Positions 4,722 to 6,203 of a DNA stretch of 32,319 nucleotides are shown here, one piece after another. The notes under the pieces were generated by a model that saw nothing but the letters and a program-made list of their open reading frames with translations, was not told the DNA's origin and searched no databases. Position 1 is the stretch's first letter, and each line of letters begins with the position of its first letter. Origin of the DNA: a virus; IMG/VR virus record IMGVR_UViG_3300023174_000436, positions 1 to 32,319 of that record; one strand, written 5' to 3'. The position numbers and the translations under genes are program-made.

Positions 4722-5432
4722 TCAATGGTCGTCTCGGCCATCTATGGGGTCTGGGTAGCCCTGGGCAATGAGGCGCTCTTGTTCCTTCGCCTGTTTCTTG
4801 GCCATGAGCATGTCAAAGTACGGACCCAGGAAGCCTTCCTTCTCGGTCTCCATCTCGGGCGTGATCGGGTCAACGAATGTCGAGGCTTTCTTTGGGGGTT
4901 CTTCGCGGCGGCGTATGACAAGCAACGGCTTGTTGGGGTCGGCGTACTTGGGCGGCGGTTTCCTGTTGGTATATCCAGGTACGAGGTTAGCGCCTGTCAG
5001 CCCTGCCCGCGAGGCGGTCTCGGCCAAGTGTTGCATCAGGTCTGGGTTCTTGACCCGCATGGCCTTGAGTTCTTCATCGGGCGGCAGAGTCTGGTGATAG
5101 TAAAGCTTCTCGGGTTCCAAGCGGCCAAGGGGGTCAGCTTGCTTCGCCCGCTTTGCGCGGATGGCCTTGGGTTCGGTGTGATGGTAGGGGTTGACGCAAA
5201 AGGCGTTCGGGCACATCCGGACCAATCTCCTGCCCGCTGGCGGGAACCGACAGATAGCGAATAGGATGCGGACGACGGAGGTCGAGCCAAACTTGATGGC
5301 CATGGGCGAGCGCGGGGCGAGCAAGGCTTGGGGGGAGTCGGTGGCAAAGGTTGGCCACAGGTAGCAGTCGTTGGAGGGAGTGCAGTTCGCAAAGAGGGTG
5401 TCTGCATTGAAGTACTTGACGGGGCGGGTCAT
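4722..5432 (-). CDS. Zinc-finger protein with HNH-like C-x4-C-x-NPxHH motif
   Basis: 236 aa, ATG 5432 with AAAGGA upstream. Residues 74-79 (CPNAFC) and 81-85 (NPYHH) resemble the zinc-binding core seen in many phage HNH_3-type and related DNA-binding proteins. I do not see a complete ββα-metal catalytic set, so nuclease activity is uncertain. The second half is Pro/Lys-rich and probably flexible, ending in a charged helix (LMAKKQAKEQERLIAQG). It has its own strong promoter (5468-5495) and is separated from the downstream operon by another promoter. It could be an early DNA-binding protein or a degenerate endonuclease. Confidence 0.7.
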   Translation of the reverse strand: MTRPVKYFNADTLFANCTPSNDCYLWPTFATDSPQALLAPRSPMAIKFGSTSVVRILFAICRFPPAGRRLVRMCPNAFCVNPYHHTEPKAIRAKRAKQADPLGRLEPEKLYYHQTLPPDEELKAMRVKNPDLMQHLAETASRAGLTGANLVPGYTNRKPPPKYADPNKPLLVIRRREEPPKKASTFVDPITPEMETEKEGFLGPYFDMLMAKKQAKEQERLIAQGYPDPIDGRDDH

Positions 5433-5467
5433 GGGGGTCCTTTTAAAAGTGCTGTGAAGGGCTATAT

Positions 5468-5495
5468 AATATAGGGCTTAGTCTATACTTGTCAA
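5468..5495 (-). promoter_or_regulatory. Sigma70-type promoter for the zinc-finger gene
   Basis: On the minus strand there is TTGACA (5490-5495), a 16-bp spacer and TATATT (5468-5473), about 35 bases before the start codon at 5432. The box is embedded in an AT-rich TATATTATATAG stretch. It is the second perfect -35 on this strand. Confidence 0.8.
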
Positions 5496-5544
5496 GCCCC
5501 AAACCCAATAAACACGCCATTTCTTGGGGTTATATCATGTATAA

Positions 5545-5680
5545 ATAACTTTGTGATGATTTTTTGAAGTAGTGAGAAGGGGAGGGAAAAGTTGGCGAGG
5601 TGGGCGTGGCGGGGAGGTCGGGCTTGGCGAGAGGAAATCACGGGACCTCTCACTGGTTGAAAAAAACGTCACAAAGTTAT
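5545..5680. repeat. Large imperfect inverted repeat with G-rich loop
   Basis: The left arm, 36 nt at 5545-5580, begins ATAACTTTGTGA. The right arm, 35 nt at 5646-5680, ends TCACAAAGTTAT. Aligned as complements they agree at about 29-30 positions, including the terminal 12 bp, a run of six A/T pairs and AGTGAGA. The 65-nt loop carries GGG-type runs at 5584-5586, 5602-5604, 5611-5614 and 5620-5622, with another at 5579-5582. In a plus-strand RNA two of the mismatches become G-U pairs. A competing hairpin (GAGAGG at 5629-5634 with CCTCTC at 5646-5651) uses part of the same right arm. Confidence 0.7.
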
Positions 5681-6019
5681 ATATATATTGTTTAATAAAA
5701 ATAATAATAAGAGAAATCAAGGACTTACGGAAAAAACGGGCGTTGCAAAGATAGGGCAAGTGTGCAGTTTTATACCCCTTCACTGGCCCCTCTCCTGCGG
5801 GCCTATAGAAACGGGCTGTGCGTTGCCCGCCGTGGGCGAGGTCTGGAGGGTGTTGCTTTTGAGCCACGCACATAGACGATATATTACAGAATCCGACTCG
5901 TTTCCTTATGCCAAATTTGCATAGATTGGTCAGGTAGATTTACTAAATAGAGCATATGGTGCGTAGAGAATTAGACCCGCCGGACACTTGCCGAGCGGTC
6001 GAGGCGGTCTTGGCGCTCT

Positions 6020-6048
6020 GGAGAAACCGACACTTTGTCGTTAATTCC
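6020..6048. promoter_or_regulatory. Imperfect copy of the hairpin family in non-coding DNA
   Basis: Arms GGAGAAACCGACA (6020-6032) and TGTCGTTAATTCC (6036-6048) flank CTT. The CGACA/TGTCG core and the GGA/TCC ends pair; three or four central positions do not. Unlike the other copies it has no convincing gene directly downstream on either strand. Confidence 0.5.
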
Positions 6049-6050
6049 GC

Positions 6051-6203
6051 CTATCCCGTTTCCAAGGGAACTGGTATACAAAGAAAGACGAGACTACCCC
6101 GTTCACACCGCCCGCAAAGCCTACGCGATGGTGGCAACGACTAACGAAGTCCTATAAGCAAGCATAGGCTACCCCGTTGCTCGGACAGGAACTGGTCTCA
6201 AAG
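6051..6203. repeat. Three degenerate direct repeats
   Basis: Each unit begins CTAYCCCGTT (at 6051, 6094 and 6169) and ends CAAAG (at 6083, 6119 and 6203). Units 1 and 3 also share GGAACTGGT at 6067-6075 and 6188-6196. Unit 2 is shorter. The arrangement resembles decayed iterons; there is no open frame through them. Confidence 0.5.

Follow-up and report, generated by a model that had tools for sequence, protein, structure and literature searches.

Background

Hairpins serve as replication origins in several small replicons, including vertebrate mitochondrial OriL, plasmid single-strand origins and the origins of geminiviruses and circoviruses, and in all of these the stem is variable and the loop constrained. 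To our knowledge, the origins of tailed phages outside the laboratory models are mostly unmapped. The hairpin analysed here resembles these systems in that pairing is kept while the stem varies and the loop or flank is conserved. It differs in host, genome type and stem length and, for the known systems, nicking or primer enzymes have been identified.

Judged by their terminases (49-57% identity), the nearest described phages are the HTVC023P-type pelagiphages and phage DSL-LC04. They share terminase, portal and a family A polymerase with the present group and, as here, the non-coding DNA of both DSL-LC04 and 023Pt_psg01 includes one long inverted repeat. However, these phages lack the gene that we call A1, which neighbours our hairpin, and their repeats occupy another place in the gene order, off the GC-skew minimum. 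That of DSL-LC04 (L038; 20562-20764, score 24.6) is non-coding, has divergent genes on either side and is separated from the minimum by about 7 kb, while the best repeat of 023Pt_psg01 is at the skew maximum. Among the five nearest described phages examined there was no A1 and no convincing equivalent of the hairpin. In Planktothrix phage Pag-Yong1, as here, the VWA and ATPase genes are on the strand opposite to terminase and portal, but A1 is again missing and the stretch just before the terminase holds no repeat among the seven listed for this phage. Weak phage sequence matches (E about 0.006 to 1) were set aside as AT-rich or short.

No account of such a hairpin was found in the literature searched, a coverage that stops short of subscription papers and preprints. 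No mention of hairpins, skew, or intergenic, inverted or noncoding sequences was found in PMC9599517 and PMC10611076 ('origin' in PMC9599517 refers to the origins of genes), and none of intergenic, non-coding, antisense or sRNA in PMC12753301.

Extent and folding of the hairpin

The window, that is, the whole stretch of DNA analysed, is a virus record of 32,319 bases. An 840 bp non-coding region (5433-6272), flanked by the minus-strand genes A1 (4722-5432) and 6273-6524, holds the hairpin, a short conserved box, the A1 promoter and copies of a 12-mer. An initial sequence-only reading had described a 136-nt stem-loop at 5545-5680, and its arms, its loop length and its AT-rich flank are all as it stated. 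This includes the 12 perfect terminal pairs, in which ATAACTTTGTGA (5545-5556) faces TCACAAAGTTAT (5669-5680). The stem, however, extends further than was first given: an inverted-repeat search places the arms at 5530-5579 and 5646-5695, around a loop of 66 nt (5580-5645) that is G-rich on the plus strand. A competing hairpin (GAGAGG/CCTCTC) can indeed be recognised in the sequence, but the minimum-energy fold does not contain it.

The hairpin is the strongest inverted repeat in the window (48-nt arms, 79% complementary) and is present as a single copy in the record. Folded as single-strand RNA, the plus strand reaches -58.4 kcal/mol (z -8.3) and the minus strand -31.1 kcal/mol (z -5.7); none of 200 shuffles equalled either. 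The loop alone is mildly structured on the plus strand (z -2.1) and at chance level on the minus strand (z 0.4). The hairpin is real and far beyond chance. It is also not explained by a gene: a minus-strand ORF of 112 aa runs across it but matched no Pfam family, and the arms vary as pairs, not as codons.

Several simple identities were rejected. A mobile (MITE-like) element does not agree with one copy in the record and arms that are different in every lineage. An intrinsic terminator, with a short GC-rich stem and T run, does not occur at the hairpin, although two were found elsewhere in 5380-6300. The suggestion that the loop could form a G-quadruplex was not borne out: four runs of at least three G separated by loops of 1-7 nt are missing in the window and, among the 32 loci scanned, are present only in L046 and L050, so this is not a general feature. 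A retron was also discarded, as a reverse transcriptase gene (PF00078) was found in none of 12 related records (a set that does not include the window) while the control matched 3 of 14.

Conservation of position and gene order

Successive, overlapping scans with the A1 protein gave 2, then 23, then 36 loci. The usable set consists of the 35 loci with 700 nt of upstream DNA, namely 34 of the 36 A1 loci together with the window; L043 and L065 were left out since their upstream DNA is too short. For each locus, the best ungapped inverted repeat upstream of A1 was compared with that in 60 Markov-simulated sequences. It exceeds all 60 in 31 of the 35 loci. In 26 loci, representing 22 distinct elements, the two arms are confined to the stretch from -340 to -98 relative to the A1 start. 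In four loci (L052, L053, L068 and L077) the repeat is strong but differs in extent, and in L058 the best repeat sits elsewhere. The repeat is not above chance in this ungapped test in L049, L050, L062 and L073; gapped folds of L049, L050 and L058, judged by eye, are still paired at the usual place. A1 neighbours the hairpin in all loci found, and most of them have, just upstream of A1, a stem 22-54 bp long that encloses a loop of 59-103 nt.

The order VWA, MoxR, HNH-like A1, hairpin, A2, terminase, portal is common to all seven full-size relatives. In these genomes TerL is 79-98% and A1 30-58% identical to that of the window, and the arms become unalike. The sequence-only reading had proposed looking for loss of the inverted repeat in relatives that keep the neighbouring genes; when this comparison was run, the element persisted. 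A pattern scan with the window's own arm sequence gave no match because the arms differ among phages. Two matches to a loop pattern (L007 and L008) were dropped as chance, their surroundings appearing to be coding and without such an element.

Arms that change together

Comparison of the arms used the 22 distinct elements. This set omits duplicates (L048, L053, L057, L075 and L076), the differently built L052 and L068, L073 (which ties its null) and scores under 17. In the stems 742 positions are Watson-Crick pairs, 61 are transition mismatches and 100 are mismatches of other kinds. The mean match score of an arm is 26.6 with its own partner, 9.3 with arms of other lineages and 7.0 with shuffles, and in all 22 elements the own partner is a better match than any arm from another lineage. 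Within the L054-L063 subgroup, seven of the 39 predicted pairs are altered on both sides in some sequence and are still paired. The arms have been rebuilt together and pairing is therefore retained although sequence is not. Both the structure of the hairpin and its conservation are well supported.

The overlap between the two contig ends of one full-size genome (G006) falls in one arm and contains two mismatches (by eye); arm variants therefore seem to be present within one population.

Paired changes of this kind would also be expected if the element encoded a non-coding RNA of about 160 nt, acting, for example, on host or phage mRNAs and with its long stem held by compensatory changes. The strong folding of both strands and the seven doubly altered pairs are in keeping with this. 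Its best point is that inner-loop purine changes in L054-L063 preserve pairing on the window's plus strand, and G-T mismatches number 40 on that strand compared with 21 on the A1 strand (p 0.02 against a 1:1 expectation). Tested against base composition, however, this wobble bias has a p of 0.16, and transitions are outnumbered by the 100 other mismatches. Folding of both strands, as first recommended, did beat all shuffles in the window, but across 23 elements (L073 being retained for this comparison) there is no strand preference: the mean z is -6.86 for the A1 strand and -6.85 for the other, and the loops alone are unstructured (z -0.30 and -0.46). There were no Rfam matches at or above the gathering score and the hairpin lacks an intrinsic terminator. 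An RNA product seems to us rather improbable.

Loop classes and flanking repeats

Loops of one class, to which the window belongs, are C-rich on the A1 strand. Those of another carry a 30-bp module, AAACATAGAAAAAGTTGAGAATAGGATGAT, found in forward orientation in 13 of 32 loci scanned (at most 8 mismatches). In two further loci it is inverted (L058, with no mismatches, and L062, with one), which suits a DNA site better than an RNA. As a control, one of 177 sampled windows of the seven genomes was within the limit of 8 mismatches, and this may itself be an element. A degenerate form of the module matched 11 viral contigs, each of which, judged by contig name, belonged to the A1 set already; two bacterial matches are consistent with the number expected by chance (about one, by our own estimate). 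In L062 and L068 the single module is replaced by two opposed copies, some 400 nt upstream of A1, and the hairpin is laid out differently.

Ahead of the arm in the window is a box, AAGTCCTTGATTTCTCT (5710-5726, minus strand). The exact form AAGTC(C/G)TTG(A/T)TT occurs in 15 of the 30 loci listed, with near variants in several more. Beyond this are three spaced minus-strand copies of a 12-mer, AACGGGGTAGCC, at 6049-6060, 6092-6103 and 6167-6178 (2, 1 and 0 mismatches, respectively). The window contains 6 such sites compared with 1.95 expected, and one relative (G001) has three copies at the same place. These are possibly iterons. The direct repeats are irregular and lineage-dependent.

Other elements were observed in the record. 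A palindromic box, TCGACAnnnTGTCGA, at 1664, 2648, 3789, 6027 and 6506 (10 two-strand matches compared with 0.63 expected) is also present in G001 and G007; it probably belongs to an operator or promoter of the leftward genes. Just behind gene 6273-6524, at 6203-6245, lies a GC-rich, near-perfect hairpin of 19 bp that adjoins a minus-strand site resembling an intrinsic terminator (6268-6255).

The A1 gene and a possible regulatory site

A sigma-70-type promoter (TTGACA followed by TATATT or TATTAT; 11 of 12 consensus positions) is located on the minus strand at 5466-5495. This strong match lies between the hairpin and A1, and the hairpin is therefore probably not the leader of the A1 mRNA.

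A1 itself is an HNH-like protein. Its members weakly match an endonuclease PHROG (16 of 17, best E 1.4e-5), while searches of Pfam gave nothing below E 0.05 and those of NCBIfam nothing at all. In the HNH consensus the general-base histidine precedes the first cysteine of the CxxxxCVNPxH motif by two residues. All 17 aligned A1 proteins have R, K, G or S at this position; the catalytic histidine is missing throughout, and in this respect A1 does not conform to an HNH endonuclease. A fold search produced no significant match (the best was I-PpoI, E 6.3, with a model pLDDT of 71), and no A1 relatives were found in the bacterial genomes or phage collection searched.

The proximity of A1 raises the question of a regulatory DNA site, either a transcription boundary or an operator controlling A1 and the leftward genes, the loop module being bound by A1 or by a different protein. 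The fixed distance to A1 and its promoter, the short conserved modules and the presence of A1 and hairpin together in L013, a locus retrieved through A2, are all consistent with such a site. On the other hand, an operator has no need of a drifting 22-54-bp stem and the signature of a terminator is missing. We consider this role unlikely.

A candidate replication origin

Cumulative GC skew, one of the checks first proposed, places the hairpin near the minimum in all seven full-size genomes. In these records of 58-65 kb it lies 777-2879 nt from the circular minimum (within 4.5% of genome length), giving P = 5e-8 if positions are uniform and independent; the genomes are, however, related. Three of them have end repeats (G001, 127 nt; G004, 97 nt; G005, 127 nt), G006 overlaps itself, and the circularity of G002, G003 and G007 was assumed. 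Genes point outward on both sides of the hairpin and, because the switch in direction is only about 2 kb from it, skew and gene direction are not fully separable. In five of the seven the minimum is on the A1 side, away from the switch. The hairpin ranks first among the inverted repeats of the genome in four (G001, G002, G005 and G007). All seven encode a family A DNA polymerase, and none has PF03796.

The terminase region starts 1.7-3.3 kb away in all seven genomes, and the contigs of L043 and L065 (the latter from G006) stop inside the element. Both would fit recognition of the hairpin as a packaging (pac) or recombination site. Strain variation in a circular assembly accounts for the G006 break, however, the overlapping arm ends being mismatched at two positions, and the end repeats of G001, G004 and G005 are not at the hairpin and were most likely left by the assembler. 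A packaging or recombination site appears improbable.

Among the three roles originally offered (origin, structured RNA and packaging or recombination site), the origin is the best supported, by synteny and by the skew minimum, while the structured RNA has been weakened. We tentatively propose that the element is the DNA hairpin of the replication origin of this phage group. This would account for its position, its single copy, pairing at the DNA level and the AT-rich flank. Against an origin stand the confounding of skew by gene direction, the absence of a DnaA box cluster at the hairpin in the window and the seven genomes, the irregularity of the direct repeats, the repeats of DSL-LC04 and 023Pt_psg01 off the skew minimum, and the four loci at chance in the ungapped test.

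If the element is an origin, opening or supercoiling of the region would allow the arms to extrude a hairpin or cruciform. This would expose the strand-asymmetric loop, which could serve as the binding site of a primase, a polymerase or an initiator, the last perhaps A1, and synthesis would begin there with the phage family A DNA polymerase. One arm may perhaps be re-copied from the other. We propose that the stem sequence is free to drift because it is the shape, together with a short loop or flank signal, that is recognised. A more specific and distinctly speculative version is a shape-recognised origin of tailed dsDNA phages in which the long stem drifts and the loop holds one of two signals, an orientation-tolerant 30-bp module or a C-rich core. 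The protein opening it would be an HNH-derived A1 that became an initiator after losing its nuclease site.

Conclusions

The hairpin shows that matching arms can be held through nearly complete turnover of sequence. An origin whose stem changes freely would escape sequence searches; the present element was found through its pairing and gene order. It provides a single-site origin candidate in an environmental phage group, tied to an uncharacterised gene family, A1, whose binding to the site can be tested.
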